NCBI GenBank assembly: GCA_900142905.1
Contig: FSRV01000001.1
Coordinates: 4,154,001-4,218,000 of the forward strand
Length of the DNA: 64,000 nucleotides
DNA from: Burkholderia sp. GAS332
GTDB taxonomy: Bacteria > Pseudomonadota > Gammaproteobacteria > Burkholderiales > Burkholderiaceae
Reading direction: 5' to 3'
The notes under the pieces were generated by a model. The model searched no databases and was not told the origin of the DNA. It saw nothing but the letters and a program-made list of their open reading frames with translations. This document shows positions 36,235-55,791 of the stretch, piece after piece. Each line of letters starts with the position of its first letter. Within the stretch, counting starts at the first letter, position 1. The position numbers and the translations under genes are program-made.

Positions 36235-36261
36235 GTCGATTGCGGAATCGCCTGGAGCGTG

Positions 36262-37594: not shown

Positions 37595-37811
37595 GATTTT
37601 CTCCATGTAGCACTTAATTCGCACACCGAATTGTATGCAAAAAAATTGGCTTCCTTCCGGTTTTCCGATGGATCCGGTGCGAAGTCATTCGGAGGCGCTG
37701 ACTTCCCCCATATCCTTGGATGAATCAGCGCGCCTTACTTAAATGGTCCCCTAGCAATTTCGTCGGCGACTAGCGCAATTTTCTGCACATTGCCTCACAT
37801 CTTTTTTGACT

Positions 37812-40085
37812 CTATATGCGGTGGTCGGATAACCATTTCGTATGGCGATCCTGACTTATGTTTTTGCCATAGTTATAGGAATCCTCATAGCCGTTGTGAT
37901 ATCCAATCTTTCTGGATGGAACGTCCGTGAACAGAATTCCTCCAATGGATACGCCACTGTGACGCAGCCGTTTGATGGTATCTGCCATTTCCGGAATACT
38001 GTGGCGCCCATGGCGCGCCACGAGCAATGTCGTCCCCGCGAACTGTCCGATCAAACTCGCGTCCGTGACCGCGAGTACCGGTGGTGTATCAATGATGACG
38101 GCGTCATATAGCGTCGATGCCCGCCCCAGCACGTCCTTCAAGCGTGGGCTTATCAGCAGATCCGCGGGGTTTTCAGGCATCTCGCCGCGAGGGATCAAAT
38201 CGACTCCCTGCGCCACGTTCCGTATCAGGACATCCTCCACATCAGCCCCGCCCAGAAGCTCGCACAGACCCGGGTTGCGGTCCACATTGAACGAGGCATG
38301 CAGGTTTCCCTGCCGCATGTCGGCGTCGATCAGAAGCACGCGCTTACCGCCAGCCGCCATGACCGCCGCAAGGTTGACGGCCATGAACGACTTGCCGACG
38401 CCCGGACGTGACCCCGTGATCATGACAATGTTGTTCGAGGCAATGTTGTCGAACGAGTGCAAAGCGGTCCGCAGGCTTCGCATGCCTTCAATGGCGGCGT
38501 CATTCGGAGCGAGGATCGCAAGAACGTGCGGGCCGGGGACGCCGCGTCGAGCTTTCTCCTGGAGACGCAGTTGCTTGTTGCTGTGTGGAACGACAGCACA
38601 AACGCCAACCCCGAGCGCCCTCTCCATCTCGTCCGAACGCTCTACGCCGCCATACAGCGCCCGCCGAAGGAAGGCGTACGCAACGCCCGCTCCAAGTCCG
38701 ACCAAAGCAGAAAGCGCGACGACCATCTTCCATTTTGGCTTAATCGGTTTCTCTGGCGCGATCGCGTAATCCACCACTCGAACGTTGCCGGCGTGGCCAG
38801 CCTTTACAACCCGTAGTTGCTCGGCACTGTTCAGGAGATTCGTGTACAACTGCGTGTTGACTTGCACATCGCGCATCAACCGCAGTGCCGTCTGTTCCAT
38901 ATCGGGCAAGGCCGCGATGCGCTTGCTCAACGCATCCTGCTCCTGCTGCGACAAGACGATCTTCGCATTCAGGGCATCGAGTTGCGGAAAACCACCCCGA
39001 TAATGATGACTCAGGTCTTCTCGCTCTCCTAAAAGATTGTTCGTGATGTTTTCCCTATCGACCATCTGCTGCAGCAGCAAACGGCTCTCGGTGCTCAAAT
39101 CAACCGTGCCCTTACTGTTTCTAAAGGCGTTGTACCGCTCCTCCGCGCCCTCCATCTCGTGCCGCAGTTTCGGCAACTGCTCGTCAAGGAAAGAGAGTGA
39201 GTGCTCGGCGTCCGCCGATCGTCGGGCTACGTCCTGGGCTACATATTGTTCAGCGATGGCATTGACGACGTTGGCAACGAGTGTCGGATTCGTCCCGTCC
39301 AGGGAAAGGCCGACGACACCCGACTGCTTCGTTTTTTCGGAGATTACGAGCGCGTCCTGCAGGCGCTGTATTGTTTCGAGTGGCGAATCGGCGACCAGCT
39401 TAAACTCCGTGCTCGCGCGCGCCGTCAACTCGCTGATCAGCAAGCTAATTGTCTCGTGCTCCAACGACGCGGTCAATTCTTGTCCAATTCTGCCGTGTCC
39501 AAGCATCTGTCCGTCGGGGCCGATAAGATCGAATGATGCATTCGGCTGTGCAACGACCATGAATTTGCGTCCGAACAACTTTGACTTCGGTGGCAGCTTG
39601 AAGATCGACACTTTTATGTCTTCGCCGCCCCACGCAAACGAACCGAGACCAAGAAATGAATTTGCCGGTCCCACGCCGTCATAGAGTCCCGCCAGCCATC
39701 GACCAACTACTGGAAAATAACGAGGCTCGACAATGACATCCAGACCAAGCTGTGTAACGGCGCCGCCTACAACAAGACGCGAGCGGATCAGTTCCATCTC
39801 CGCGTCGGAGGTCGCCTTCGCCTTGGTGTCGAATATCGCGGCGAGCTGTCCGAGCGCCTCCTTGTCCGACGAGGCGGCCGTATCGGCGTTGGTCTCTATC
39901 TGAATCAATACATCTGCGCGATACACTGGCTGCGCGATCGTCGCATATAGCGCTCCTAGGCAAGATATTGTCAGCACGACAATGAGAATTGAACGCCACG
40001 ATTCGAGCACGACGTACAAATAATCGGACAGGAGGGTCCCCTCCGACTTCGCTGCGTCGTACGGGATTGGTGTTATGACAGCCAT
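37812..40085 (-). CDS. Wzc-like polysaccharide co-polymerase and tyrosine autokinase
   Basis: 757 residues from MAVITPIPYDAAKSEGTLLS. Wzz domain with two membrane helices (~WRSILIVVLTISCLGALYAT and ~WKMVVALSALVGLGAGVAYA), a long coiled-coil periplasmic part, and a cytoplasmic BY-kinase: Walker A GSRPGVGKSFMAVNLAAVM, A' LLIDADMRQG, Walker B AVIIDTPPVL. A Tyr cluster near the end (IGYHNGYEDSYNYGKN) is the expected autophosphorylation site. Controls EPS chain polymerisation and export. No wza or wzb partner is in the window. Its upstream region carries one copy of the repeated element. Confidence 0.93.
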   Translation of the reverse strand: MAVITPIPYDAAKSEGTLLSDYLYVVLESWRSILIVVLTISCLGALYATIAQPVYRADVLIQIETNADTAASSDKEALGQLAAIFDTKAKATSDAEMELIRSRLVVGGAVTQLGLDVIVEPRYFPVVGRWLAGLYDGVGPANSFLGLGSFAWGGEDIKVSIFKLPPKSKLFGRKFMVVAQPNASFDLIGPDGQMLGHGRIGQELTASLEHETISLLISELTARASTEFKLVADSPLETIQRLQDALVISEKTKQSGVVGLSLDGTNPTLVANVVNAIAEQYVAQDVARRSADAEHSLSFLDEQLPKLRHEMEGAEERYNAFRNSKGTVDLSTESRLLLQQMVDRENITNNLLGEREDLSHHYRGGFPQLDALNAKIVLSQQEQDALSKRIAALPDMEQTALRLMRDVQVNTQLYTNLLNSAEQLRVVKAGHAGNVRVVDYAIAPEKPIKPKWKMVVALSALVGLGAGVAYAFLRRALYGGVERSDEMERALGVGVCAVVPHSNKQLRLQEKARRGVPGPHVLAILAPNDAAIEGMRSLRTALHSFDNIASNNIVMITGSRPGVGKSFMAVNLAAVMAAGGKRVLLIDADMRQGNLHASFNVDRNPGLCELLGGADVEDVLIRNVAQGVDLIPRGEMPENPADLLISPRLKDVLGRASTLYDAVIIDTPPVLAVTDASLIGQFAGTTLLVARHGRHSIPEMADTIKRLRHSGVSIGGILFTDVPSRKIGYHNGYEDSYNYGKNISQDRHTKWLSDHRI

Positions 40086-40226
40086 AAAATTAAACTCGCT
40101 TTTCGAATTCTGGAGAACGCAACCCAGCATCAACGCATGCACCTTATCCAGCTCAGATGGACACGATATTCTCGTTGCGCCCCCGATACCTTTCCCAAGC
40201 CCAAGCCACGCAAACATCCCCTCGAA

Positions 40227-40285
40227 AGCTTAGGCATTGCAATGCACACGACCCAACGGCTGACGAATATTGGCAAGACCTTGGC
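40227..40285 (-). promoter_or_regulatory. EPS repeated promoter-like element, copy upstream of wzc-like gene
   Basis: Core 40260-40285 (+ strand CTGACGAA, then TATTGGCAAGACCTTGGC) matches the copy at 47743 in about 22 of 31 ungapped positions. A -10-like box (CTAAGCT on the - strand, 40227-40233) lies 26 nt downstream. About 140 nt ahead of the start codon. Confidence 0.6.
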
Positions 40286-40308
40286 GGTCCCGCGACACCA
40301 CCCTACGA

Positions 40309-41514
40309 CTAATCTGTAGCCGCCTGATCGTGCTGCAGCGATCCACGCGTCATCGCCGTGCGCCCCACTATGTCCACGTAGCTTTGAGCGACCCTCTCGA
40401 TATGGAACCGGTTGTTGAAACACGCCAACGCATTGAATCGCATCGCCGCTTTGGTTGCCGCCGGCGTGGACGCCCACTTTCTCAGGAGGCGGCTTACCCC
40501 CGCTTGGTCATCGCTGTCCGCGAACCCGGCTTGATCCGCGACCACCTCCTCCCAGATCGCCACCTTTTTCGTGATAAGTACAGGAACACCGCACCCAAGC
40601 GCCTCAGCAACCGAGACGCCAAAGTTCTCCTGATGCGACGGCAAAACAAGTACGTCTGCGGATCGCATCAACGACCATTTCACCGCCCCGGTAACCATGC
40701 CGGGCCAGGAAATCCCGGAGCCAATGCTGAGCTCTTCCGCTCGCATCTTCAGCATTCCCGCGAGAGCGTTATCGTCGGGGCCCGCAATGACCACCCGATA
40801 ATTCTTGCACTCACTTCCGAGATCGGAGTAAGCGCGGATCAGCAAGTCGCAGCCCTTCTTCTCGTGGATCCGTCCAATATAAAGAATGATATTTTTCCGC
40901 TCCCCGTCTTCATTTTCCAGCGCCCGATTCGCTTGTTCGCCTTCCCCAGGCTGGGCATAATCGGTGGGTGGCGGGGCAGTCCCGTATACCATCACGGCTT
41001 CCCTGGATTTGTAGAATGGGAACGCCGACTGAGCCAATACCCTTTCGCTCTCGGATGTGAAGATGACGTTCTGCGCGCCTTTGAGCAAGTGACGTTCAAC
41101 GAGCATCCAATAGGCGAGCTTCTTGACCCACTTTCCGGGGTACGCTTTATTAAACCAAGGGTCCATCATTCCATGCGGCACCACGAAATAGGGAATGCCC
41201 TGGCCGCGCAACGCGAACAGGACAGCCAGGCCGTGGAATTGCCATAGGCCGTTCACCACGACCGCGTCGTAGTCTCTCGCCGCAGTCTTCAACCACGGCA
41301 CCAGCCGGACATTCAACGAATATTTGCCACCACGATGCCCAAGACGGACGACGCTTCCGAATGCCCCGTCGTCTGCACCCGCTCCGGCCGGATCGAGGCA
41401 AACGACATCGAGACGATGCCCCACCGTCTTCAAATGTGCAGAGAGTCTCGTCAGGGCCTCAATAGGACCGCCGCTACGAGGATGTGCCGAAGCAATTACA
41501 TGAAGAATTCTCAA
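40309..41514 (-). CDS. Glycosyltransferase family 4
   Basis: A 401-residue GT-B enzyme: LRILHVIASAHPRSGGPIEA, VVVNGLWQFHG, VPHGMMDPWF, IILYIGRIHEKKGCDLLIRA, WPGMVTGAVKWSLMRSADVL, LPSHQENFGVSVAEALGCGVPV. The start codon is TTG (41514) with AGGAG seven bases ahead; no ATG gives a better start. Builds part of the EPS repeat unit; sugar unknown. The 170-bp upstream region lacks a clear copy of the repeated element. Confidence 0.87.
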   Translation of the reverse strand: MRILHVIASAHPRSGGPIEALTRLSAHLKTVGHRLDVVCLDPAGAGADDGAFGSVVRLGHRGGKYSLNVRLVPWLKTAARDYDAVVVNGLWQFHGLAVLFALRGQGIPYFVVPHGMMDPWFNKAYPGKWVKKLAYWMLVERHLLKGAQNVIFTSESERVLAQSAFPFYKSREAVMVYGTAPPPTDYAQPGEGEQANRALENEDGERKNIILYIGRIHEKKGCDLLIRAYSDLGSECKNYRVVIAGPDDNALAGMLKMRAEELSIGSGISWPGMVTGAVKWSLMRSADVLVLPSHQENFGVSVAEALGCGVPVLITKKVAIWEEVVADQAGFADSDDQAGVSRLLRKWASTPAATKAAMRFNALACFNNRFHIERVAQSYVDIVGRTAMTRGSLQHDQAATD

Positions 41515-41684
41515 GGTACACTCCTGCCTGCTTTAGTTTGTCGCGCCGTCACCGAGAACAAGTCTGCGATGCGGTCAGGCGTTCATGTCTGCGTTGAGTT
41601 GGTCGCCACTAACGGCATCAGCAACCAATCGACTGACTTCATATCGGCCCGATGCGGTTACGGCAGAAGGTCAGCCAGTGGGCG

Positions 41685-42134
41685 CTACCTGTGCGGCTCG
41701 AAGCGCACCTTGTCGAGCCCCCCGAGATACGGTCCCTGCTTGACCTCGACAAACGACGCATCCTCCAGTACCTCGAACCCATGACCGCCCGAGGCAAGCA
41801 GGATCACGTCGCCTGCACCAAGCGTGCGGCTCGTGAGGTAAGTCCGATCCGGAGCATAAAAATCGACACGCAGGCGTCCACGTTTTACAAAGAGCACCTC
41901 TTGCGTGTACTCGACTTGCCGCATGATGTGATTGTGGACATGTGCCGGAATGACCGTGCCGCGCGGATGTTCTATGTAGGCGAGCTGCTGGGAGAAATTA
42001 TCAGGGGTGAAGAAATTCACTCCACCCTTTGAATAGGAATCTGGAAGGATCATCGCCAGCATCGAGCCCTCGTGAGAAATCACTTCGGGATCTGCACACT
42101 CGATCGTTTCGCTGTCCAATGATTGCAACGCCAT
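41685..42134 (-). CDS. Small cupin-domain protein
   Basis: 149 residues from the ATG at 42134, which has AGGAG eight bases upstream; earlier in-frame ATGs do not. Cupin motif 1-like GTVIPAHVHNHIMR and motif 2-like GAGDVILLASGGHGFEVLED frame VLFVKRGRLRVDFYAPDRTY. Resembles uncharacterised cupins found in polysaccharide loci. It might bind or isomerise a nucleotide sugar, but no function is proven. A decayed second copy of its 3' end is at 50653-50756. Preceded by a repeated element. Confidence 0.7.
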   Translation of the reverse strand: MALQSLDSETIECADPEVISHEGSMLAMILPDSYSKGGVNFFTPDNFSQQLAYIEHPRGTVIPAHVHNHIMRQVEYTQEVLFVKRGRLRVDFYAPDRTYLTSRTLGAGDVILLASGGHGFEVLEDASFVEVKQGPYLGGLDKVRFEPHR

Positions 42135-42250
42135 TTGAAGGTCTCCTAATTTTCGTTGATCGCTTTCTTGCGTATTCGCCATCGATCCGCGCGTGGTCTC
42201 GCATTGAACGCGGCTCGCCGCGCGAAACACACATCCGATCCGACTGACGA

Positions 42251-42310
42251 AGCATAGTCACCAGTCAAAGCAATACGAAAGCGCTGACCGAAAACAGCAT
42301 GATGTTGGCC
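42251..42310 (-). promoter_or_regulatory. EPS repeated promoter-like element, copy upstream of cupin gene
   Basis: Core 42284-42310 (+ strand CTGACCGAAAACAGC then ATGATGTTGGCC); -10-like CTATGCT on the - strand at 42251-42257, 26 nt from the core. The whole unit, not just the core, resembles the copy at 50778-50837. About 115 nt ahead of the start codon. Confidence 0.65.
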
Positions 42311-42429
42311 GACTGACCGTCTCCCTGCAGTATCAATCTACGCCATTGATAGTATGCCGAATCAATTATCAACACTCTCGTCAGACACTCTCTCGACCCG
42401 GTGACCACGCCCTCAGGACGCGCGTGTAA

Positions 42430-43806
42430 TCACCCCGTCCATATGGAACTCCCCCAACACATTTTTCTCGCCTGGAACCGCTCGATTGCTTCGTGCAGGG
42501 TTGCAAGCCTCCCGGCGTCCCCAAGCGCTTCAATGCGCTGCCTGCCTCTCTCGATCAACTGCATTCGAAATTCCGGTTGCGTCATGATCTCGTGAAGACC
42601 ATCCGCCATGCTGCCCGGATCATTCAGGTCCAGCAGCACGCCAGCGTCCCCGACCTGATCCCGCAACGCCGTGAGGTCCGAATACAGAACGGGCACGCCT
42701 AGCTTGAACGCCTCTAGCGGTGGCAAATTGGTCGGGCCAAAATATGTCGGCATCACCAACGCCACTGCTTGGCGGTATAGATACGGAATTTCGTCATCGG
42801 GAACGAACCCGGTGAACACGACTCTGTCGTCGAGGCCGAGGTCCGCCGCGATGGAATGCACGTAGGTCTTGTTACCGAAGTCGCGCCCGGAGAAGACGGC
42901 ACCCAAACGAATACCGAATTTATCTTCCAGACTCCGCAGGCCGCGAAGCAAGTAGACGTGATTCTTATGAGGCCAGAATTGCGCCGGGTAGTAGACGTAG
43001 TCGCTTGTCAGCTGATACTTCGCTTTGATATCGATGTATCCCTGCGCGTACTCGTCATCCGACAGCAATATTCCGACAGCCGGCGAGAACGGTACTACGT
43101 GCACCCGGTCACTGTCGATGCAATACCGTCTCACCACGTTGTCTTTCCCGGCAACCGAGTCGACGAAAATGCCGGACGCTTTCTTGAGCGCCGATTGATA
43201 GAGTATTTCCCGGCGCTCGAACTCCCTCCTGATCCGCACCTCCGGGAACTCGACCTCATCGCGATGCGAAAGATCCCAGACAGTGAACAGGTAGTTGAAA
43301 TGCTCCGTGAGCAGCGCGAGTTGCGAGGGATTCGTAAAGTACACCAAGTCAGCCTTCAGCGTGCCGAGGAAGCGATCGATCGCATTCAGCTTCGCGGGAT
43401 TGTTCAGCACGCTAAATGGCGCCATATGCGTAAGCTTTACCCGCAGGCTCGTCGCAAGCCGCCTCCACCGCCTCATGGGAAAATACACCGCCTCGATCCC
43501 GCTTCGACGCAGGTCTTCCACGGATGATTCACGTGTTGTCACGAACACGACGTTGCAAAGACTGGCAGGCAGCTTCTTTACAAGGAGCGCGGCGTTCTTC
43601 GCCTGCTGATAGCCTCCTCCGGCGAGGCTGTCTTGTTCGAGGAATACCACCAGCCTGACCGGCCGGGTCAGATTGCGGCTCGGGGGCGTTCTCGTCTCAA
43701 GTGTCTGGCCGCTACGGGTTTCGAGTTCGCACGCAACTGTCGCTAGAGACGCTACTGAAGCGTCCGTCATCCGCGGCGCCCAACGAGAACGAATGTAATT
43801 CAGCAT
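42430..43806 (-). CDS. Glycosyltransferase family 4
   Basis: A 458-residue protein with a ~50-residue N-terminal extension, then VRLVVFLEQDSLAGGGYQQA and the C-terminal donor domain: YYPAQFWPHKNHVYLLRGLR, LDDRVVFTGFVPDDEIPYLY, MPTYFGPTNLPPLEAFKLGVPVLYSD. The FWPHKNH and GPTNLPPLEA motifs are typical of mannosyltransferase-like GT4 enzymes. AGGGA is five bases ahead of the ATG. Stands alone behind its own promoter element, consistent with a separate transcript. Confidence 0.87.
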   Translation of the reverse strand: MLNYIRSRWAPRMTDASVASLATVACELETRSGQTLETRTPPSRNLTRPVRLVVFLEQDSLAGGGYQQAKNAALLVKKLPASLCNVVFVTTRESSVEDLRRSGIEAVYFPMRRWRRLATSLRVKLTHMAPFSVLNNPAKLNAIDRFLGTLKADLVYFTNPSQLALLTEHFNYLFTVWDLSHRDEVEFPEVRIRREFERREILYQSALKKASGIFVDSVAGKDNVVRRYCIDSDRVHVVPFSPAVGILLSDDEYAQGYIDIKAKYQLTSDYVYYPAQFWPHKNHVYLLRGLRSLEDKFGIRLGAVFSGRDFGNKTYVHSIAADLGLDDRVVFTGFVPDDEIPYLYRQAVALVMPTYFGPTNLPPLEAFKLGVPVLYSDLTALRDQVGDAGVLLDLNDPGSMADGLHEIMTQPEFRMQLIERGRQRIEALGDAGRLATLHEAIERFQARKMCWGSSIWTG

Positions 43807-44201
43807 GTTATCCCTGAGATGAAGGCAAAAAACATGTTTGATTTGATGACGTCGGCTTGCCGTTCCTTTCTAGTTCCCCGCAGCAAGCTACGACGCCCAG
43901 TTTGCTGTAAGGTCTTCAAGATCGCGCACCCTCACCCTGTTCAGCGTCGTCGCCCCTACCAGCATAGTCAGCACCGCCGCGACCAGGAAAATTGGTGACC
44001 GATAACGGCAAGGTGTTGGCTGCCTGTTGGGGTTGGGCACCGCAACGCGCCCGCGTTCTAGATCCCGGCATCCAGGATCGTCCAAGAGGATGCTCGTTCC
44101 TTTCGTTATACTAATGTTTTTTAAACGAAAAATAATAGAAGGCTGTCATCAACGAATCAAAGCACGAAGTGGCCGGCTGTCGCTATCCATCGCGGCGCCG
44201 T
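43807..44201. other. 395-bp intergenic region with a promoter element
   Basis: Contains the repeated element (43961-44020). The right half is AT-richer (around 44100-44140) and has no recognisable gene. Confidence 0.5.
43961..44020 (-). promoter_or_regulatory. EPS repeated promoter-like element, copy upstream of GT4 gene
   Basis: Core 43995-44020 (+ strand GTGACCGATAACGGC then AAGGTGTTGGC); -10-like CTATGCT on the - strand at 43961-43967, 27 nt from the core. About 155 nt ahead of the ATG at 43806. Confidence 0.65.
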
Positions 44202-46241
44202 TCACGGGTTTGTGGCGCACGCGCCTTCGTCAGTTCGAGGACCGGCATGCCTCGGCGGTAGTGCGTCAAAAGCGGGTGGCCGCGGACGAAACGCGGCGGG
44301 TAAATCAAAGTCCTTTAGGCGAGGCCTACGCTCGGAAAATTGAAAGACATCGGTTCGGTCGACACACACGTTCTCCGTTGACTTCGGCAAGAATCGCTTA
44401 TTCAGAAAGCCAGGGCCTGAAAGGACCACGCATCCGCTCCTAATCATCAAGTTATTGCTCAACTCGTTATATTTAGGCGCGCCCACATCGTCCACGAGAA
44501 TGTTGCGAAGATTGGGATATTTCCCATAAGCATCCCCCTGATAGGGAACAGCATGCAAGGCCATCCTCAACTGTCCCTTCGGATCGGTTACCGCGTCGGC
44601 CTGCCACGTCAAACCGCGGTCGTCGATGCTGATGGGAGGCACACTGTCGACAAACAGGTTTTCTTCTACGGCGGTGTCTCGTCCGCCACCGACGTAGACC
44701 GCATTGGGAACCTTGTAGAAAACATTTCGTTGGACGGTTGTGCCGCTCACCATGTCGTCGAGGTACACACCCCGCGCATCTGACGACCCCTCGCCTACGT
44801 TGTGCAGAAAATTGCCGACGATCGCGTTACCGCGCTCCGTCCAGTCACGCCCCAGATAGATCGCACCGGCATCGCTGGTACTTTTCACCACGTCATGGAT
44901 GTCATTGAACCTGACGACGTTGTCGTTGCCGTCGATCATGATCGCAACGTGAGGGGCATCGTAAATGCGATTACGCTCAGCGACGTTGCCCACACCCGCC
45001 AGGCGTATTCCGGGCCGGTAGGTGGTGTTCCACAGATTAAAATCGTAAATATCGTTGTCCTTTGCCACCAGGTTGCCAGGGGTTAGCGTTTTGCGATCTC
45101 CGCCGGAAAGGTACACCCCCCCATCTCCAACATCGTGGATCCGGTTGCCGGCAACCTCGATGTTTTTGCCCGTCGCGTCAATCGCCCGTCCCCCAATGCC
45201 CCGGATCTCCGCGTTGCGGATCTGCACGCTCTGCGAGTCGCGGATGACGATCGCCGGACCTCGTGCTAGCTTGAAATTCAAACCGGTCAGATCGATATGG
45301 CTCGCACCCTCGATCCTTAGCAGCGTTTCCGCGTCAGATACCTCGGCGTGCGAGAGATCGCTGGACGGAGGCCAGAAATAGATTCGCTGGTTTGCTGCAT
45401 CTAAAACCCAGTCGCGTGGAGATACCAGTTGTGACAGCACGTTCTGAATAAAAAATCTTTGCCCGGTGCGCATGGAGAAGGCCGGCGTGCCGCCCAACTC
45501 GAACGAGTCCGTACGACCATCAGTTACCGTCACCGGCAGCGCTTCCATCGACCAGTCGTAGTACCAATAGCCTACTGCCCACGCCCCCCGTCCCAGGATG
45601 AAGCCGGCGGGCAGAGGCTGGTCCGCCACGAATTGCTGGCCAGTCTTGCCCTTCACTGCTGCGATATGGGCATAGTCAGATTTTGGCCAACGCGCAAGCG
45701 GCATTCGCTCGCCATTAAAATAGAGTTCCGTGTTTGCGACCTCCGGTTCCGCACCCCAACCGTGGCGCTCCAGGTCGTGCAACACGAGCCCACTGCCCGA
45801 AAGATCGAGAACACGGACCGCAATCCTCGAGGCACCTGTCAACTCGCCGGCTTCGCCTGGCCTGAGTGTCCGAAACCCGGCAAGCGGTTTCCCGCCGCTG
45901 ATCCACACCGTGCCCGGATGAATGGCATAGATGCATAGCGGGGCATTGGGCGAACCGGATGCCCCAGCGGGAATCACGATTGGACTCGACACGCGATACA
46001 CCCCATCCACGATCGCAATGGCAATGGGTGTTGACGAGAAGCCTGGCTTCCTCCGGAACGCGATAACGCGCCTTACCGCTTCTCCAAGGTCCGCAAGCGG
46101 GCCGTTGGAACTGCCAATATTCAGTGACCGGCCAGAGGCCAGATTGCTGCCGTCGGGCGCGACATAAAGCTTAAAAGCGTTGGCGTATTCGGCACACAAA
46201 ATCATCAACGCGGTGCTCAGGATAATGAACGCTTTCCTCAT
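44202..46241 (-). CDS. Exported right-handed beta-helix protein (polysaccharide lyase/epimerase-like)
   Basis: A 679-residue protein with signal peptide (IILSTALMILCAEYANA). An N-terminal beta-rich region (FKLYVAPDGSNLASG, GTVWISGGKPLAGF) is followed by parallel beta-helix coils from ~residue 330 (SVQIRNAEIRGIGGRAIDAT, IEVAGNRIHDVGDGGVYLSG, NVVRFNDIHDVVKSTSDAGAI). It probably acts on the EPS in the periplasm, as lyase or epimerase do in other clusters; the catalytic residues are not identifiable. Its ATG overlaps the wzy stop, so the two are coupled. Confidence 0.8.
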   Translation of the reverse strand: MRKAFIILSTALMILCAEYANAFKLYVAPDGSNLASGRSLNIGSSNGPLADLGEAVRRVIAFRRKPGFSSTPIAIAIVDGVYRVSSPIVIPAGASGSPNAPLCIYAIHPGTVWISGGKPLAGFRTLRPGEAGELTGASRIAVRVLDLSGSGLVLHDLERHGWGAEPEVANTELYFNGERMPLARWPKSDYAHIAAVKGKTGQQFVADQPLPAGFILGRGAWAVGYWYYDWSMEALPVTVTDGRTDSFELGGTPAFSMRTGQRFFIQNVLSQLVSPRDWVLDAANQRIYFWPPSSDLSHAEVSDAETLLRIEGASHIDLTGLNFKLARGPAIVIRDSQSVQIRNAEIRGIGGRAIDATGKNIEVAGNRIHDVGDGGVYLSGGDRKTLTPGNLVAKDNDIYDFNLWNTTYRPGIRLAGVGNVAERNRIYDAPHVAIMIDGNDNVVRFNDIHDVVKSTSDAGAIYLGRDWTERGNAIVGNFLHNVGEGSSDARGVYLDDMVSGTTVQRNVFYKVPNAVYVGGGRDTAVEENLFVDSVPPISIDDRGLTWQADAVTDPKGQLRMALHAVPYQGDAYGKYPNLRNILVDDVGAPKYNELSNNLMIRSGCVVLSGPGFLNKRFLPKSTENVCVDRTDVFQFSERRPRLKDFDLPAAFRPRPPAFDALPPRHAGPRTDEGACATNP

Positions 46242-47524
46242 GAAACGCTCGAGGCCGTAACGACTTGGGGGGCGGCCCTGCCCAGGGTTTCATCGGCGGC
46301 CTCCGCAGGGAAGGCGATGGTCCTCGCGCTCACGGGGCGCGAAGCGCTCCGGGTCTCAAACTGTCCTTTATAGAGAAGCAAAGCCAAGGAGATCAATATG
46401 ACTTTGTCATACATGAATATCGCCCCATTGAACTGCATCGACAGCACAAGGAGTACGATCTCGGCAAAGCTGTTTCGAGCGAAAAGAATAGCCAGTACCG
46501 CAAACCCGCCAACGCCATATAGCAGGAACATATTGATCAACGCGTTGTCACTTGCACCAGCCGTGAACCCTGCCGCCGCCGCGAAGTCGCCCCTGACCAC
46601 GTATGAAAGAGACTCGGAAGGGACACCGAAGATATAGCCTTTTTCAAGCATTTGACCCATCGCCAGGAACGGGTATATCAGTCGAATACGACCCGACTCG
46701 TCCGAGCCATACATCAATGCCTCCAATCTGTCGCCTAGCAGAACCGCCGCACCGACCAGGAACGCAAGACCGAGAAGCATGATGCCGACGTTTCTGGACA
46801 ACGCTTTCCAATTGGTGACAAGTAGCACAGCAATGAGCGCGGCAATTCCCGATGCCGTTTGGGCAAGCAAGGCGATCACCATGCCGACTACCACGAAGCA
46901 TGTTCTTTCGGCTCGATTCGTGGACATGACTTTTTGACTTGCGAACACCAGACATAAGATGACGAAACCTAGATAGGAAGGCTCCGCATAAGTCGCGGCC
47001 GGGCGTATTAGCGTGAGGACACCATGCTCCGCGCCAAATTTCAGCCAGCAATCTGCCGATGTGCCGCAGTTCGCGAGACTGATGGGTTTAGGCAGCAGGT
47101 TATAGGGTAAAAAGAACCTGCCGCTGCGAGCAGTGTACAGATCGATGGCCTGCAAGGCCGTGATCAGAAGGAGACCCAAAATGATGATCCACAGCGCACG
47201 CCTGATTCGTACATGAGCCGCTTGATCGAACCTCGGTTTTATGTTCTTGAATGCGACAAGGATAAAAAGACAAAGCGCTTCCCTGCCCGCGCGGACCAGC
47301 ATGTCGAACGAAATTCCACCCGGAGCAAAAATGATCGGCACGACGAGGAACACCGCACCGGCCAGCGCGAGACCCAAGGAAAGAAGCGTCAAATTTCTGA
47401 GACCGTAAATAAGCGCCACGACGAAACACGCGCCCGCGACCGACAAGTGGACGGTATATCCAATCTGCAACGTGAATACGCACACTATCGCGAGGAAAAA
47501 GTGCACGAGGTTCAGCTTGACCAT
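46238..47524 (-). CDS. O-antigen/EPS polymerase-like membrane protein (Wzy)
   Basis: 428 residues from MVKLNLVHFFLAIVCVFTLQ (AGGAA seven bases upstream; an earlier in-frame ATG lacks this). About 11 membrane helices and a large periplasmic loop (RSGRFFLPYNLLPKPISLAN, CGTSADCWLKFG) followed by RPAATYAEPSYLGFVILCLV, which fits Wzy topology. Expected to polymerise lipid-linked repeat units. Coupled to the downstream beta-helix gene. Assignment rests on topology and context. Confidence 0.75.
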   Translation of the reverse strand: MVKLNLVHFFLAIVCVFTLQIGYTVHLSVAGACFVVALIYGLRNLTLLSLGLALAGAVFLVVPIIFAPGGISFDMLVRAGREALCLFILVAFKNIKPRFDQAAHVRIRRALWIIILGLLLITALQAIDLYTARSGRFFLPYNLLPKPISLANCGTSADCWLKFGAEHGVLTLIRPAATYAEPSYLGFVILCLVFASQKVMSTNRAERTCFVVVGMVIALLAQTASGIAALIAVLLVTNWKALSRNVGIMLLGLAFLVGAAVLLGDRLEALMYGSDESGRIRLIYPFLAMGQMLEKGYIFGVPSESLSYVVRGDFAAAAGFTAGASDNALINMFLLYGVGGFAVLAILFARNSFAEIVLLVLSMQFNGAIFMYDKVILISLALLLYKGQFETRSASRPVSARTIAFPAEAADETLGRAAPQVVTASSVS

Positions 47525-47826
47525 TTTATTTCCTGGTCGATTCGATGGGAAGTTCTCCGAACAGATCTTCAAGCATCGTCGCCGCCGGTTTGGCACCGGG
47601 CACGCGAAGCGGCATGGAAAAACAGGTGACGGGCCTGGCCGCATAGGGGCTATCACTTGACAATGCAAATAATCCTATTCATCGACCCAAGGTGCATAAG
47701 GTCATCATGATCGTATGCTGCGGTTCTGCGCCAGGATATCCACTGACCGATATCGACAAGGTGTTGGCCGACCGTCTCCGACAAGCCAGGTTCCCTCCAT
47801 TCGCGTGGTATGCCGACGGCCGCGCA
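47525..47826. other. 302-bp intergenic region upstream of the wzy-like gene
   Basis: Holds the repeated element at 47711-47768. No other signal or gene recognised. Confidence 0.5.
47711..47768 (-). promoter_or_regulatory. EPS repeated promoter-like element, copy upstream of wzy-like gene
   Basis: Core 47743-47768 (+ strand CTGACCGATATCGAC then AAGGTGTTGGC). The -10-like position has a weaker box (CATACGA on the - strand, 47711-47717) 25 nt from the core. About 190 nt ahead of the ATG at 47524. Confidence 0.6.
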
Positions 47827-49308
47827 TTAGGAGACTCGTGTCTGTGGTTCGGCGAGCGCTCCATCGGCTGCCCCATCGATCGCCGAAACGTGCCGGAATA
47901 TCTGCTTTCTGAAGAACACCATAAAAATCGCATAATCGGCGAACAAGCTCGCGAACACGGTTGACCAGACCACCCATGCCACCGACCCGAGCGCATTCAG
48001 CAAGATGATCTTCAGCGGCAGCGCCGTGGCGCAAAACAGCCCGACTGCAAACAGTTGCGATCTCAGCTCTCCCATGCCGTTCATAAAGATCGCAAAAGCA
48101 CTTCCGAAGGAGTCGAGGACGACCCAGACTGCCACCGCGCAAAGTAGCAGCGCAGGCACTTGCAGACGCGCCCCTATCCAGAGGTGCAGAAGCCACGGCG
48201 ACGCTAGAAGTATCGTGCCGCTCATCAGCAACGCAAGCAGACTGACAGCGGACAGCGAGATCTTGAGCGTGTTCAGGATGAACAGCCGATCCCCCCTCGC
48301 TTTCGCGTCCGCGTAGAGTCCCCACAGGGGTCCTGTCAGCATCGCTACTGTCACGGGCACGAATTGGAATAGCCGCTGTGCGATTGCAAGCCGGGCTACT
48401 TCGGACGCACCCAGGATGTGCGACACGATCAGCGCGTCGCTTCCCCACCCGCACATTGCTCCTATCTGCAACGCAAAGAACACCCAGCCGGAGCTCAGGA
48501 GCACTTTCCAGTCATGCCACGCAGAAGTACTCCTGTCCGGACGAAAGGAAAAGATTTTCTCCCGGTACAACCGTATCAACAATAACAACGAACCGAAAAC
48601 CTGCATGCCATAGGTTGCACCAATCAGATAAGGGATCGGCGCGTGGTACCTGGCACACGCAAACAGCAGGGGCAGTGCGCACAGATATCCAATCGAAGAG
48701 GCAATATGAGGCTCCCATGCGCGCTGCAAGCCTTGAAAGACCTTTCTGACGCCGCCTAGCGGAATGTTTGCGCAAAAGAGCGCGATGAAAACAAGAACTG
48801 ATGTTTGCGCCTCGTGCGCGGCCATCTGTGATCGGATCTTGATGACCCTGTGAAGCCCGACGACGCTCAGTGCGCCGGCGAGGACCAAAGCCGCGAGCAC
48901 GCCGATAGCAATCAGCAACCACACTCCGCGACTGACGATCGTCTGCAGCCTCCAGCGCTCGTCCGTCGATTTCGCATGAGCGACGAGATTGACCAAGCCG
49001 TTTCCCACGCCCAGATCGAGCAGGGAGAGCATGGCGGCAAGACTCGAAATGGTCATCCAGACGCCAAAGCGCTCCTGACCCAGGTAGGGAAGTGTCAATG
49101 AAACAGAACACAGGAGGACCATCAATCCCAACGCGGCGCTCACGGCGTTGAAAACCATCGAACGTCCAGCGCGTATATACCGGTCCTTGTCCCGCTCACT
49201 CGATGCACTGCCCCCCTGTGGAAACAAGCGCGATCGAACAATCGACCCGACCCGCCGGATCATCGCCGAGACCGCTCCTCGAGAGCACGATGGGTCGATG
49301 CGCGACAT
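47827..49308 (-). CDS. EPS flippase (Wzx-like)
   Basis: A 493-residue PST/MATE-like flippase with ~12 helices. Signatures: VSLTLPYLGQERFGVWMTIS, LDLGVGNGLVNLVAHA, SSGWVFFALQIGAMCGWGSD, ILGASEVARLAIAQRLFQF. AGGGAG precedes the ATG by five bases. It translocates the EPS repeat unit. Second flippase of the window (the first, at 31910, lies in the LPS-type gene group). Only a degenerate, gapped match to the repeated element lies upstream (49346-49371). Confidence 0.87.
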   Translation of the reverse strand: MSRIDPSCSRGAVSAMIRRVGSIVRSRLFPQGGSASSERDKDRYIRAGRSMVFNAVSAALGLMVLLCSVSLTLPYLGQERFGVWMTISSLAAMLSLLDLGVGNGLVNLVAHAKSTDERWRLQTIVSRGVWLLIAIGVLAALVLAGALSVVGLHRVIKIRSQMAAHEAQTSVLVFIALFCANIPLGGVRKVFQGLQRAWEPHIASSIGYLCALPLLFACARYHAPIPYLIGATYGMQVFGSLLLLIRLYREKIFSFRPDRSTSAWHDWKVLLSSGWVFFALQIGAMCGWGSDALIVSHILGASEVARLAIAQRLFQFVPVTVAMLTGPLWGLYADAKARGDRLFILNTLKISLSAVSLLALLMSGTILLASPWLLHLWIGARLQVPALLLCAVAVWVVLDSFGSAFAIFMNGMGELRSQLFAVGLFCATALPLKIILLNALGSVAWVVWSTVFASLFADYAIFMVFFRKQIFRHVSAIDGAADGALAEPQTRVS

Positions 49309-49449
49309 GTCGGCTCCCTAGCAGGAGAGGGTCGCGTCACACCGGCCGGCCAGAAAATGAAAGGTGCGAGCCGGCCAGTTCGTTCTACAGATGAAAAAGT
49401 GCATATCAGGACATGTCGTTGTATTTCGAATAGGGTCGACCTACGTTCA

Positions 49450-50565
49450 TTAGAGCGATTCCATTAGTTGTCTGACCGCGCCGACCACGCGGTCCTGCTT
49501 TTCATCTGTCAGCGCAAGTCCGCTCGGCAAATAGAATCCGCGCCGGCCCATGCGCTCCGCTATTGGATAACGCTCGTCGGTGAAGAGTCCCATCTTTCGA
49601 AACACCGGCTGTTCGTGCATGGGCCAAAAGAAAGGTCGCGTGTCTACGCCCAGTTCGGCCAGGTGCGCGCGGGCTTCGTCCCCGCTTAAGGGGATATCGT
49701 CCTTCAGGATCAAGCCATAAACCCAAAAGATACTTTCACCGTAAGGTTCAGATGGCGGAGATAGTTCGAGCCCCGCCACGTCATGCAGCAGACGACCGTA
49801 CCTGTGCCCGATTTGCCGCTTTCGAAGCGTATGCCTCGTGAGACTTTCCAACTGGGCAAGTCCAACGGCAGCTTGAAGATTGCTCATCCTGTAATTCCAA
49901 CCCAGCTCCTCATGGATGAACCGCCGTTTCGGCATGAAGCAAAGGTTGCGCAAACTCTTGGCCCGCGCATGGAGCGCCTCGTCGTTGCACAACACCATGC
50001 CGCCTTCTCCCGTCGTGATGTTCTTGTTCGAATAAAAGCTAAGACAAGAGATAGCACCGAAGCTTCCGCAAGGGCGGCCTTTGTATGTCAGGCCGATAGC
50101 TTGCGCGGCGTCTTCGATGATCGGAATCCCGTATCTGGATGCGAGTTCGATAACTGGGTCCATATCCACTGGCAGCCCGAAAATATGGACCACCATGATT
50201 GCTCGTGTACGGGGAGTAATGGCGCCTTCGATCTTCGTCACGTCCATATTCCACGTCACGGGATCGGAATCGACCAGCACCGGCTTCGCGCCGGCTTTTA
50301 CCACCGCGGCCGCACAAGAGATGATCGTGTGGGCGGGCAGTATCACTTCGTCTCCAGGTCCGATCTTCAAACTCGCTACGGCTATGTCGAGCGCAGCTGT
50401 CCCGTTCGCGACGGAAACTGCGTAGCGGCGGTTCATCTGTTCCGCCATTCCATTTTCGAATTTTTCTACAAACGCCCCGTCCGCGGAAATCCATCCGCTG
50501 ACTATGCATTCGCCCAAATACCGCGCCTCGTTACCGTCAAGCAGCGGTTCATTAACAGGTATCAT
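49450..50565 (-). CDS. Sugar aminotransferase, DegT/DnrJ/EryC1/StrS family (perosamine-synthase-like)
   Basis: 371 residues from MIPVNEPLLDGNEARYLGEC; upstream ATGs add ten atypical residues. PLP features: YAVSVANGTAALDIAV, GPGDEVILPAHTIISCAAAV, IPIIEDAAQAIG, and SFYSNKNITTGEGGMV with the catalytic Lys. FMPKRRFIHEELGWNYRMSN is close to GDP-perosamine synthases. That would fit GDP-mannose from ManC, but no GDP-mannose dehydratase gene is in the window, so the substrate is uncertain. Confidence 0.85.
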   Translation of the reverse strand: MIPVNEPLLDGNEARYLGECIVSGWISADGAFVEKFENGMAEQMNRRYAVSVANGTAALDIAVASLKIGPGDEVILPAHTIISCAAAVVKAGAKPVLVDSDPVTWNMDVTKIEGAITPRTRAIMVVHIFGLPVDMDPVIELASRYGIPIIEDAAQAIGLTYKGRPCGSFGAISCLSFYSNKNITTGEGGMVLCNDEALHARAKSLRNLCFMPKRRFIHEELGWNYRMSNLQAAVGLAQLESLTRHTLRKRQIGHRYGRLLHDVAGLELSPPSEPYGESIFWVYGLILKDDIPLSGDEARAHLAELGVDTRPFFWPMHEQPVFRKMGLFTDERYPIAERMGRRGFYLPSGLALTDEKQDRVVGAVRQLMESL

Positions 50566-50652
50566 CCTCAATCCCCTATCCATCATTCGCACCATTCATT
50601 TTGTTTGGGCCAGGATCGCAGCGATGCTATCCAAGGGAATCCAGGCGCACCC

Positions 50653-50756
50653 TGTCACGCCCCCGAGATGCGACTCCTGCTTGACTTCGACGAACGACGC
50701 ATCCCCGCGTATCTCCAGGCCATGACCGCCCGCGCCGGGCATGCGGCCCCGCACCA
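50653..50756 (-). pseudogene. Remnant of a second cupin gene (3' end)
   Basis: The leftward frame gives AGGHGLEIRGDASFVEVKQE then SHLGGV. It aligns with GGHGFEVLEDASFVEVKQGP YLGGL at the end of the intact cupin. It lies between a repeated promoter element and the aminotransferase gene and now forms part of that gene's leader. Confidence 0.75.
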
Positions 50757-50777
50757 TAGGTCAAGTCAGCCTGAGTG

Positions 50778-50837
50778 AGCATAGCTACCAAACCAACGTA
50801 ATACAAAAAGGCTGGCCGAAAATGGCATGGTGTTGGC
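50778..50837 (-). promoter_or_regulatory. EPS repeated promoter-like element, copy upstream of cupin relic/aminotransferase
   Basis: Core 50812-50837 (+ strand CTGGCCGAAAATGGC then ATGGTGTTGGC); -10-like CTATGCT on the - strand at 50778-50784, 27 nt from the core. About 210 nt ahead of the aminotransferase ATG. Similarity to the copy at 42251 extends along the whole unit. Confidence 0.65.
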
Positions 50838-51327
50838 TGACGTGCCGGACACCCAATGGATAGCGCGAAATCTATCTCGCGTTTGCGATGTGAGGTGCGA
50901 GCACCCCGTCGGTATCGACCTGTTCGTTATCGAAGAAGCGGTAAGCCGCCTTGAGTTCAGCGGCGTCCATCTAGCGTAGGAACGAACACTTCGGTGTGCT
51001 GGCAAGCCTCCGGGTTAACGATACAAGTAGGCTCGTCAGACGGGTGTCGCCCAGATTCGCCGCACCGAATTCGATGTCGCCCTGGTCAGCCTGACTGGCG
51101 GTCGAGGGGCTTGCGGACATGTATGTCCTTCCACAGCTTGCCGGTGCTGCGGATCTCGTCATGCCTTCGAAGCGTGGTCCAATGTTGTCGGGCGGCAGAC
51201 CGGTAATTGCGACTGCGAATGAAGGCACCGAGTTATGGAGCGCCGTCAACTCGGTCGGCGTCGCGCTGGAGCCAGGCTAAACCCACGTAGGCGGCAAGCC
51301 ACCGAACCGTCTCACGTTCTTCATGCG
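50838..51327. other. Degenerate region between aminotransferase and regulator genes
   Basis: No intact gene. The right part holds a glycosyltransferase relic on the + strand (listed separately); the rest (50838-51100) is unassigned. Confidence 0.5.
51107..51280 (+). pseudogene. Remnant of a WcaI-type glycosyltransferase C-terminus
   Basis: The rightward frame reads GLADMYVLPQLAGAADLVMP, SKRGPMLSGGRPVIATANEG, TELWSAVNSVGVALEPG and then TAA. It resembles the donor-domain end of colanic-acid-type glycosyltransferases (LPQ..GAADLVMPSKLTGMLASGRPVVATA). Nothing upstream continues the frame. Oriented opposite to the current EPS genes, so it belongs to an older arrangement. Confidence 0.7.
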
Positions 51328-52323
51328 TCAGCTCTTTCGTTGACTCCGCGCCCGGAACTCGGTAGGCGACATCGAGAGCTCTTTACGGAAAAGCTTCGAA
51401 AGCCTCTCTCCGTTGCTAAGACCGGTTCTGCGAGCGATCTTATCCACCGGAAGATCGCTATTCGCGAGCATCTTGCACGTGAGGTCGAGACGCGCACGAA
51501 GAAGGTACTTTGACGGCGTGACACCGATCTCCCGTTTGAACAGACGCAGAAAATTGCGCTCACTCATCGAAGACGTCCGCGCCGCATCGCCCACTGATAT
51601 TGGCTTTGCGCAGTTCTGGACAAGCCAGCGGGCCGACGCACGCGCTTTCTCGTCGAGCGTTGTTGCATCCATCTCTCCGATCGTGAAGGCCAGCGAGTGG
51701 TGGCCGCCCGAACCGAGACGGTCCGCCACGCGCACGGCCAACTCCGCGCCCAGATCCGTCTTGAGCAGTGCGAGCGAGGTCATCAAAGCTTGGTCGCGAT
51801 CATGCTCCGGAGCGCTCGCGGATGAAGACTTGAGATGAATGTCCTGCTGCATGGAAGGCCAATCGCGCCGTGCCACGCCGGCGGCCGACAAGACCATATG
51901 ACCATTCCCGATCGCCGTGACGCTGACGCTTCTTGCACAAGCCAATCGCAACAGATCAATGAGGTTGTCGTCGGCGGAAGCGCGCGCGACACCACTTCCA
52001 CCGGGAATGAAGAGGATGTCGAGACGATCGAAGTGACGCGCGGCCAACCGCTCTGTCCAGACAGACATTGATGACGAGCACGTTACCGCGCCCCCGCGAG
52101 CCGAGATGAGATTCACGCGGTACGTAAGTGAATTACTGGAACTTTTCGATTGCAACTCATTAGCGACATGCAGAGCTTCGGCAAGCGTATCCGCGGAGGG
52201 CAACGAAAAACCGTCGTACAGAACAATCGCAACATCCTTCACCACGTTCGAACGTTGCACGGGACGAGTGCTCTCTCTCGGACAGTCCGTTGGCACGAGC
52301 ACGTGGGATGAGGTCTGCGTCAT
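51328..52323 (-). CDS. GlxA-type AraC-family transcriptional regulator
   Basis: 331 residues: an N-terminal DJ-1/PfpI-like domain (DVAIVLYDGFSLPSADTLAEA, DILFIPGGSG, VSVTAIGNGHMVLSAAGV) and a C-terminal AraC double helix-turn-helix (ISVGDAARTSSMSERNFLRL FKREIGVTPSKYLLRARLDL, then PVDKIARRTGLSNGERLSKL FRKEL). The nucleophile elbow Cys of active PfpI proteins is replaced (AIGNGH), as usual in regulators. GGAG seven bases before the ATG. The only regulator in the EPS block, so a candidate activator of the repeated element; not proven. Confidence 0.88.
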   Translation of the reverse strand: MTQTSSHVLVPTDCPRESTRPVQRSNVVKDVAIVLYDGFSLPSADTLAEALHVANELQSKSSSNSLTYRVNLISARGGAVTCSSSMSVWTERLAARHFDRLDILFIPGGSGVARASADDNLIDLLRLACARSVSVTAIGNGHMVLSAAGVARRDWPSMQQDIHLKSSSASAPEHDRDQALMTSLALLKTDLGAELAVRVADRLGSGGHHSLAFTIGEMDATTLDEKARASARWLVQNCAKPISVGDAARTSSMSERNFLRLFKREIGVTPSKYLLRARLDLTCKMLANSDLPVDKIARRTGLSNGERLSKLFRKELSMSPTEFRARSQRKS

Positions 52324-52583: not shown

Positions 52584-52905
52584 TACGAAGGCATCGACAG
52601 CGACGACCGCTTTCAGGCCAAACGCATCGTCGTCCGCCCTGGCGCGCAACTGAACCTGCAGATGCAGGCATCACCGTGCCGAGCACTGGGTGGTGGTGAA
52701 AGGCACAGCACTCGTCACGAACGGTGGCGACGAAATCACCCTGACAGAAAACCAATCGACCTATATTCCACTTGGAATCACGCACTGCCTGAAGAACCCA
52801 GACAAGATCCCGCTCGAATTAATCGAAGCGCAATCCGGCGCCTACCTCGGTGAAGATGACATTGTGCGATTCGAAGACATGTATGGGCGTACGGAGAAGG
52901 CATAG
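52584..52905 (+). pseudogene. Truncated, frameshifted second copy of the manC 3' end
   Basis: Matches the last ~105 codons of manC (YEGIDSGDRFQVKRIVVRPG versus YEGIDSDDRFQAKRIVVRPG). A net +1 base near 52667 (ATGCAGGCATC for ATGCATCATC) breaks the cupin His cluster. In the new frame the rest is nearly identical: [20 protein letters not shown] and [21 protein letters not shown], then TAG. No start; not functional as ManC. Confidence 0.9.
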
Positions 52906-52944
52906 CGCTCATATTCGGGGGCGAGTCATTGAGATCCGAGCGCT

Positions 52945-53139
52945 CTAATCCGCCACCCGAAACACCGCGACTGCATCACGCAACGCAATCGCGTGCTCTT
53001 CCAGAGACTTCGCCGCCGCGGCGGCTTCTTCAACGAGCGCTGCATTGTGCTGGGTAACTTCGTCGATCTGCGAGACCGCCTTGTTGACCTGCTTCATACC
53101 ATCGCTCTGTTCGAGTGCCAACGCCTCAATCTCACTCAT
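52945..53139 (-). pseudogene. Second copy of a chemoreceptor gene 3' end
   Basis: The last ~65 codons of the chemoreceptor at 55792-57342, almost identical (EIEALALEQSDGMKQVNKAV and [20 protein letters not shown]). Homology stops abruptly at 53139. It lies 39 bp from the manC relic with the same spacing as the intact manC–chemoreceptor pair. Confidence 0.9.
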
Positions 53140-53229
53140 AACCGATAGCCCGGGGCGCGGTCGTATGCGCGCCCCAAGCCTATGCGCGCGTCTCACTAAG
53201 CGCACTGGGTTCAGGCGCGATGCCACCCA

Positions 53230-53454: not shown

Positions 53455-54072
<618 letters not shown>

Positions 54073-54321
54073 TGATTGCTCGACGGCGGAGTCAGAGAAT
54101 CGCCAGACAGGGATTCCGTCGCCGTCGATTGCGCGTCAATGAATGGCACTCATCGATCGGGCACGCTCTCCGGCAGCAGCGCGCTCGTGCCGTTGGCATG
54201 GCATGCAACGCGCACGGGCGCGAAAGTATCCATGAGCAATGCCGCGCCCCAACGGCACGTTGATGCCCGCGCTAACATACACATCTGCGAATACAAAAAA
54301 TCTTAGACAGGGAATGAGACC

Positions 54322-55752: not shown

Positions 55753-55791
55753 TGCTCATATTCGGGGGCGAGTCATCGAGATCCGAGCACT
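55751..55791. terminator. Hairpin between convergent manC and chemoreceptor genes
   Basis: AGTGCTC (55751-55757) pairs with GAGCACT (55785-55791). In the relic copy the same positions read AGCGCTC (52904-52910) and GAGCGCT (52938-52944), so pairing is kept by compensatory changes. Short stem and long loop; probably a weak bidirectional terminator. Confidence 0.45.

Follow-up and report, generated by a model that had tools for sequence, protein, structure and literature searches.

An exopolysaccharide (EPS) cluster of Burkholderia sp. GAS332 carries five copies of one promoter element, which is probably the operator of an EPS-dedicated family of GATase1-type AraC activators, joined to a sigma-70-type -10 box. 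The copies lie in a 64,000-nucleotide stretch of contig FSRV01000001.1 (positions 4,154,001 to 4,218,000), hereafter the window, whose own coordinates are used below. We favour this reading at that strength because of the period of a direct repeat within the element, its spacing from the -10 box and its co-location with regulator genes. An earlier note on the window had proposed an activator-dependent promoter element repeated across the EPS locus; the core, the -10 spacing, the variable -35 region, the intergenic placement and the recurrence in other species support that proposal. Three findings go beyond that first reading: a GATase1-type AraC protein as candidate regulator, a direct repeat of 21-bp period and the recurrence of the element in relatives.

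Five copies in one EPS locus

The five copies, starting at 40260, 42284, 43995, 47743 and 50812, are ungapped and all on the minus strand, as first described, with the gene-direction core GCCAACAYCWTGYCRWTWTCGGYCAG. In leave-one-out matrices each held-out copy was top-ranked over both strands and all window positions, scoring 20.9–32.6 against 14.3–15.6 for the best non-copy position; copy 40260 is the most divergent. Each core is followed by a -10-like box, again as first reported. All five copies are intergenic and upstream of a leftward EPS gene, at 102–247 nt from a predicted start rather than the 110–210 nt previously given; gene predictions and start codons are estimates from a simple codon model built for this analysis. 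The copies, with the distance of each -10 box past the 31-mer core, are:

Copy 1, 40227..40290, minus strand: core 40260-40290, -10 box TAAGCT at 40227-40232 (27 nt); upstream of wzc, perhaps also of gt0 (36374-37606)
Copy 2, 42251..42314, minus strand: core 42284-42314, -10 box TATGCT at 42251-42256 (27 nt); upstream of the cupin gene 41685-42182, perhaps also of gt1
Copy 3, 43961..44025, minus strand: core 43995-44025, -10 box TATGCT at 43961-43966 (28 nt); upstream of gt2
Copy 4, 47710..47773, minus strand: core 47743-47773, -10 box TACGAT at 47710-47715 (27 nt); upstream of the wzy-like and beta-helix genes
Copy 5, 50778..50842, minus strand: core 50812-50842, -10 box TATGCT at 50778-50783 (28 nt); upstream of the cupin-gene remnant and degT

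Nearly every gene or pair had been thought to own a copy. The distributed layout held, with copies before wzc, the cupin gene, gt2, the wzy-like/beta-helix pair and degT; no own copy was found in the window for gt0 (36374), gt1 (40309) or wzx (47827).

Across the whole genome (10,416,547 bases in 3 contigs), the window pattern with up to three mismatches gave four matches, all in the EPS locus, and the reversed-pattern control gave none; copy 40260 lies more than three mismatches from the pattern and so falls outside the four. The motif is therefore not scattered; random scatter was an outcome that the earlier note had set against its own proposal. A 15-base pattern allowing two mismatches proved unusable, with 1,016 matches in the genome against 346 in its control. 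At gathering scores, Rfam placed no family at the element copies, its sole match in the window being 5_ureB_sRNA.

It is extremely improbable that we are dealing with a mobile or duplicated repeat devoid of regulatory meaning. Spacers and flanks are dissimilar among the copies except for 42284 and 50812, which have 65% spacer identity. Since cupin-like sequence follows both of them, duplication of a promoter along with its gene may account for at least one copy. The remaining copies are alike solely in the core and the -10 box, and on these grounds we reject the mobile repeat, a possibility also raised at the outset.

The genes of the locus and other features of the window are:

wzc, 37812..40130, minus strand: polysaccharide tyrosine kinase / chain-length protein (Pfam GNVR, WZC_N, Wzz)
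gt1, 40309..41433, minus strand: glycosyltransferase (Pfam)
Cupin-like protein, 41685..42182, minus strand: weak WbuC similarity, under the NCBIfam cut-off, and no Pfam match
gt2, 42430..43806, minus strand: glycosyltransferase (Pfam)
Right-handed beta-helix protein, 44202..46241, minus strand (Pfam)
Putative polymerase (wzy-like), 46238..47524, minus strand: named from context, with no Pfam or NCBIfam match
wzx, 47827..49308, minus strand: flippase (Pfam Polysacc_synt)
degT, 49450..50595, minus strand: sugar aminotransferase (Pfam)
Cupin-gene remnant, 50635..50736, minus strand: separates copy 5 from degT (53% by tblastn, over 34 aa)
Candidate regulator, 51328..52323, minus strand: 331 aa, AraC family of GATase1 type (Pfam DJ-1/PfpI and tandem helix-turn-helix, HTH_18)
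5_ureB_sRNA, 22219-22504, minus strand (Rfam, 111 bits)

Beyond the regulator gene, 52584-53142 and 53548-54079 form a composite remnant. One 559-bp part is 91% identical to 55432-55989, the ends of manC and an adjoining chemoreceptor gene; stretches of 452 and 91 bp are 93% and 89% identical to parts of a galE-like region at 35494-36243. The EPS cluster has been rearranged via duplicates.

A 21-bp direct repeat ahead of a -10 box

The anatomy of the element was examined in intergenic sites of at least 17 bits, 73 in all, reduced to 47 non-redundant sites that include the five window copies. Their consensus is TCSGCCAACATCTTGCCRWWTTCSGTCA; other positions carry about 0.3 bits or less, the -10 excepted. 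The box TANNNT lies at 26–28 nt in 41 of the 47, and any other offset occurs at most twice. Self-comparison scored 17.9 at a shift of 21 bp, with the next scores at 9.6 (1 bp) and 9.2 (11 bp), which exposes TCSGYCA as a direct repeat of this period, at positions 3-9 and 24-30. The -35 position (36-41) is unconserved, at most 0.11 bits over the 47 sites, in agreement with the first reading.

These features bear on whether the core might instead be a sigma-54 promoter (GG-N10-GC) with incidental -10-like boxes. GG-N10-GC does occur in copies such as 42284, and sigma-54 consensus sequences are described in bce promoter regions of B. cenocepacia H111 (PMC7378592, in the part covered). Against this, the G at position 5 needed for the sigma-54 GG is found in just 13 of the 47 sites, and this reading would account for neither the conserved CAA nor the second repeat, nor for the -10 at 26–28 nt. 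We consider a sigma-54 promoter very unlikely, and ruled out this candidate, taken up for the GG-N10-GC of some copies, since the GG/GC pair does not hold across the sites.

In the arabinose system, araI1 and araI2 have a 17+4+17 bp geometry and overlap the -35. The second repeat here ends upstream of the -35 position, and would overlap it only with half-sites of 17 bp; with that length, borrowed from AraC, they would span 3-19 and 24-40, the second one entering the -35. The AraC system differs from that of the window in half-site sequence, effector domain and targets. The likeness lies in two half-sites side by side next to a promoter: arabinose-bound AraC binds araI1 and araI2 and recruits RNA polymerase at E. 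coli araBAD (PMC4760080; for this and the other papers cited, our statements refer to the parts covered).

A second parallel is CdhR of P. aeruginosa. The sites that it binds consist of directly repeated GGTCGC with a spacer of 15 bp and closely resemble those of GbdR, SouR and ArgR; CdhR and GbdR are GATase1-type AraC regulators, and CdhR activates and enhances its own expression (PMC5806209). Their sites and the window element have in common a period of 21 bp (6+15). They differ in half-site (GGTCGC there, TCSGYCA here), in role (carnitine and related catabolism there, EPS here) and in position, the CdhR site lying around or beyond -112 from the start whereas here about 5 bp separate the end of the second repeat from the -35 position. 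By analogy, the element is best read as working like CdhR-type and AraC operators.

Recurrence and co-location with AraC-family genes

On 144 genomes of the genus, the window pattern alone matched 43, with 50 matches outside the GAS332 genome (the 50 counted from the table); the reversed pattern gave 1 match against 54 for the true pattern. We inspected 30 of the 50 matches in relatives, finding 17 intergenic and 13 within genes. All 17 intergenic matches had TANNNT at 26–28 nt, where chance would give about 1.3%, and none of the 13 in genes did. The intergenic matches precede AraC-family genes (7), manC (9, L049 among them confirmed) and a methyltransferase gene adjoining an AraC gene (1, L056). 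The AraC protein of the window shares 40–44% identity with the three of these seven AraC proteins that were aligned to it.

The manC promoters have features of their own. In eight of them (L037, L041, L043, L049, L050, L052, L055, L060) the core holds a palindrome, GCCAACATGTTGGC, one letter off in L043, and seven of the eight also match on the opposite strand. A TGCACTGCA stretch overlaps the -10/start region in these eight manC promoters, and we take it to resemble the box of the polyhydroxybutyrate (PHB) regulator PhaR. In S. meliloti, PhaR couples PHB with exopolysaccharide (PMC12542648).

A search of 58 other genomes gave only distant relatives of gt2 (the best at 37%, along part of the protein), and therefore related clusters were sought via the AraC protein. 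An alignment of five AraC proteins led to 79 loci, from the best 80 of 431 relatives, in Paraburkholderia, Caballeronia, Trinickia, Cupriavidus and records named Burkholderia. In these, the five-copy matrix had 124 matches of at least 16 bits; eight matrices with permuted columns had 0–4, and the reversed one had 7. Over the 79 loci together with the window, flanks from its own genome and the G124 loci, where 86% of the sequence is coding, sites of at least 20 bits were intergenic in 57 cases and genic in 5; at 16 bits or more the counts were 109 and 24. A refined matrix, trained partly on the same 79 loci, placed a site within 400 nt upstream of 51 of the 79 araC genes, and five permuted controls placed none. 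By class, the upstream site was found for 4 of 19 araC genes in the class of at least 53% identity (L069-L087), 47 of the 60 remaining and 91 of 1137 other predicted genes.

For breadth we used a model, R1, made from the 41 of the 47 sites that have a -10. R1 E-values are rough, and R1 scored part of the first-look candidates: 150 of 3788 in the GAS332 genome, 36 per genome for most genomes of the genus and 17 in the order-wide rows listed. At E ≤1e-4, a tally of the table gave R1 sites in 47 of the 144 genomes of the genus; across the order they were found in 2 of 300, GAS332 itself and one family member. Among the scored candidates of GAS332, E fell below 1e-3 for the five window copies, themselves part of the R1 input, and for one site before a YjbH-type EPS gene on the second contig. 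This site (L210:2786), the top one outside the window at 46 bits, precedes a 792-aa gene and lies some 25–28 kb from two AraC paralogs.

There is practically no probability left for chance or codon bias as the source of the similarity. Its one support is that 13 of the 30 inspected matches fell in genes and had no -10; it is refuted by the leave-one-out ranks and by the reversed-pattern and permuted-matrix controls, and is further opposed by the confinement to 2 of 300 order-wide genomes.

AraC co-occurrence was examined in 40 of the 144 genomes: the 20 with the best sites, GAS332 excluded, together with 20 from the set of 21 in which R1 reached no E-value of 0.05 or less. An AraC relative (E ≤1e-30) was present in 20 of 20 best-site genomes, as against half of the poor-site genomes. 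The best site stood 128–142 nt before the first matched araC residue in 16 of the 20 best-site genomes, and within 1 kb in 18.

The candidate regulator of the window matches AraC-type and DJ-1/ThiJ-type chains of the PDB. In its DJ-1-like domain AIGNGH aligns to SVCTGS of the ThiJ-family chain 3mgk; the nucleophile cysteine is missing, and so a sensing rather than an enzymatic domain would fit. The GAS332 genome has five close members of this family (100, 44, 43, 43 and 40% identical to the window protein), after which identity drops to 27%. The recognition regions MSERNFLRxFK and LPVDKIARRxG are mostly common to the family, with small departures in some rows, in a comparison that left out rows L152 and L154.

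The paralogs have EPS surroundings of their own. One (L159) has an upstream site of 36.8 bits and is immediately followed by manC, then by a gene for a sugar transferase, one more gene and wzc; two (L160) adjoin wzc and sugar genes called rml-type by sequence start only, with sites of 27.3 and 20.9 bits; the fifth (L158) has no site of at least 10 bits. In other genomes two distinct AraC paralogs can share a contig, about 20–25 kb apart (L069/L085, L071/L087, L073/L080, L075/L083). The second type has a site at its own gene in L080, L082, L083 and L087 and none in L085 and L086; the first type has none.

AdpA of Streptomyces is likewise an AraC protein with a DJ-1/PfpI-type N-terminal domain. 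Its DNA-binding domain (3w6v) is matched by the window protein, with a similar helix, MSRRTFDRRFR in AdpA and MSERNFLRRFK here. AdpA, a master regulator, has low DNA specificity, whereas the sites here are few and near EPS and araC genes. The AdpA box, TGGCSNGWWY (PMC8653842), and the first half-site here, when read on the opposite strand, share TGGCS.

Several points weigh against an AraC operator, beginning with the nature of the regulator–site link, which is a correlation of place and presence. R1 breadth, AraC co-occurrence and the araC-upstream counts are partly circular, because sites next to araC genes were among the material for both R1 and the refined matrix. An AraC relative is still found in 10 of the 20 poor-site genomes, and in two of the best-site genomes (G164, G153) the best site is on a contig without an AraC match. 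The 17 intergenic matches amount to about five promoter types, since many of them are a given promoter seen again in a related species. The half-site letters are not those of CdhR and GbdR, for which reason we did not file the element as one of their sites. No upstream site of at least 20 bits was found for the araC of the window or for 13 relatives of the same type (L066, L069-L079, L081), so autoregulation fails for this type. Five loci whose AraC is 61–69% identical (L076-L079, L081) have no site of at least 18 bits near predicted gene starts; at lower thresholds, the site-poor loci gave one plausible site (24.4 bits, L077). Among EPS genes, wzx has a site in merely 2 of 8 related loci. Wzc-like genes are present in L077-L079 and L081 (not in L076, within the stretch examined) despite the near absence of recognisable sites.

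An alternative consistent with some of these points is that the element is an activator operator bound by another regulator, such as OmpR or NtrC, with the AraC genes merely co-regulated targets. This we judge unlikely. OmpR and NtrC are broad regulators, which we count against it, as we do the strong sites preceding both EPS and araC genes, the AraC subfamily in every best-site genome and the fit of the 21-bp repeat to the GATase1-AraC mode. In its favour are the window-type araC genes without a site, the poor-site genomes with an AraC relative, the secondary 11-bp periodicity, and OmpR and NtrC being the response regulators implicated so far in cepacian biosynthesis (PMC8231446).

Direct binding of cepacian promoters by the implicated regulators is called unknown (PMC8231446). 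Regulators reported for Burkholderia EPS comprise sigma-54/NtrC, OmpR, quorum sensing, BerA/BerB and an H-NS-like protein (PMC7378592, PMC5552954, PMC8231446, PMC3502180); they likewise act on EPS genes, and neither such a motif nor a GATase1-AraC regulator appears in the parts covered. The same holds for the other openly licensed papers on EPS regulation that were covered (including PMC5979394 and PMC10475733). The claim that the motif had no earlier description thus stands only within these papers, where such an absence is weak evidence. BCAM0835, an AraC-family gene of B. cenocepacia, is among the quorum-sensing-affected genes together with cepacian genes (PMC3502180).

EPS genes as possible promoter-carrying cassettes

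We mapped 21 loci (L065, L066, L069-L087), in which gene order and strand vary. Sixteen have at least two transcription units bearing a site of at least 18 bits; the other five, L076-L079 and L081, have none. Among orthologs, the cupin gene carries a site in 7 of 7 loci and gt1 in 4 of 6; for gt2 the count is 5 of 6, the remaining gene standing behind a site-bearing AraC gene. For wzc, sites were found in L066, L071, L073 and L084 and not in L077-L079, L081, L159 or L160. The wzy-like protein of the window (46238-47524) is 49% identical to that of L073:8187-9533, likewise site-bearing. In L066, L080, L085 and L087, cupin and degT genes are adjacent with a single site in front; the window has the cupin remnant between copy 5 and degT, and the intact cupin gene at 41685 with its own copy.

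Core identity was compared over 44 sites, assigned to genes by hand with cupin and degT pooled. It came to 0.78 when one gene was compared across loci and to 0.635 when the genes differed and the locus was shared, a difference reached in 0 of 500 label permutations, which ignore the relatedness of the loci. This also argues against a mobile repeat. In the window, copy 50812 groups with the cupin/degT sites and the other copies do not group with their counterparts: 43995, 42284 and 47743 are as similar to each other or to sites of other genes as to their counterparts, and 40260 is nearest to gt2 sites elsewhere. A strict reading in which each site stays with its gene was thus set aside, being true on average over the 44 sites and mixed in the window.

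If the element is an AraC-type operator, a GATase1/DJ-1-type activator would bind both halves of the repeat side by side, and once bound would recruit RNA polymerase, substituting for the absent -35. Several transcription units of one EPS cluster would then be switched on jointly, presumably in response to a signal sensed by the DJ-1-like domain. Candidate signals are sugar nucleotides, nitrogen limitation and plant exudate; in P. phymatum, nitrogen limitation and germinated seeds induced a bce operon (PMC7378592). In the window the likeliest activator would be the AraC protein at 51328-52323; its paralogs may run sister EPS loci, many with the same operator before their own gene. The nod boxes of rhizobia offer a precedent, one operator standing before many units of a region that encodes its own regulator; they are alike in the repeated-operator layout and differ in having a LysR regulator and another sequence.

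In these bacteria EPS matters for biofilm, symbiosis and the colonisation of plants. With an operator defined, a candidate regulator family named and target promoters listed, its regulation becomes a directly testable question. We regard it as possible, if a little short of an even bet, that an EPS-dedicated GATase1-AraC family, undescribed in the literature covered, governs several loci in Paraburkholderia/Caballeronia relatives, and that their clusters are sets of promoter-carrying cassettes, each with an operator of its own, so that a module could be moved, inverted or imported without leaving the regulon. Such a layout would account for the reshuffling of polysaccharide clusters without loss of co-regulation.

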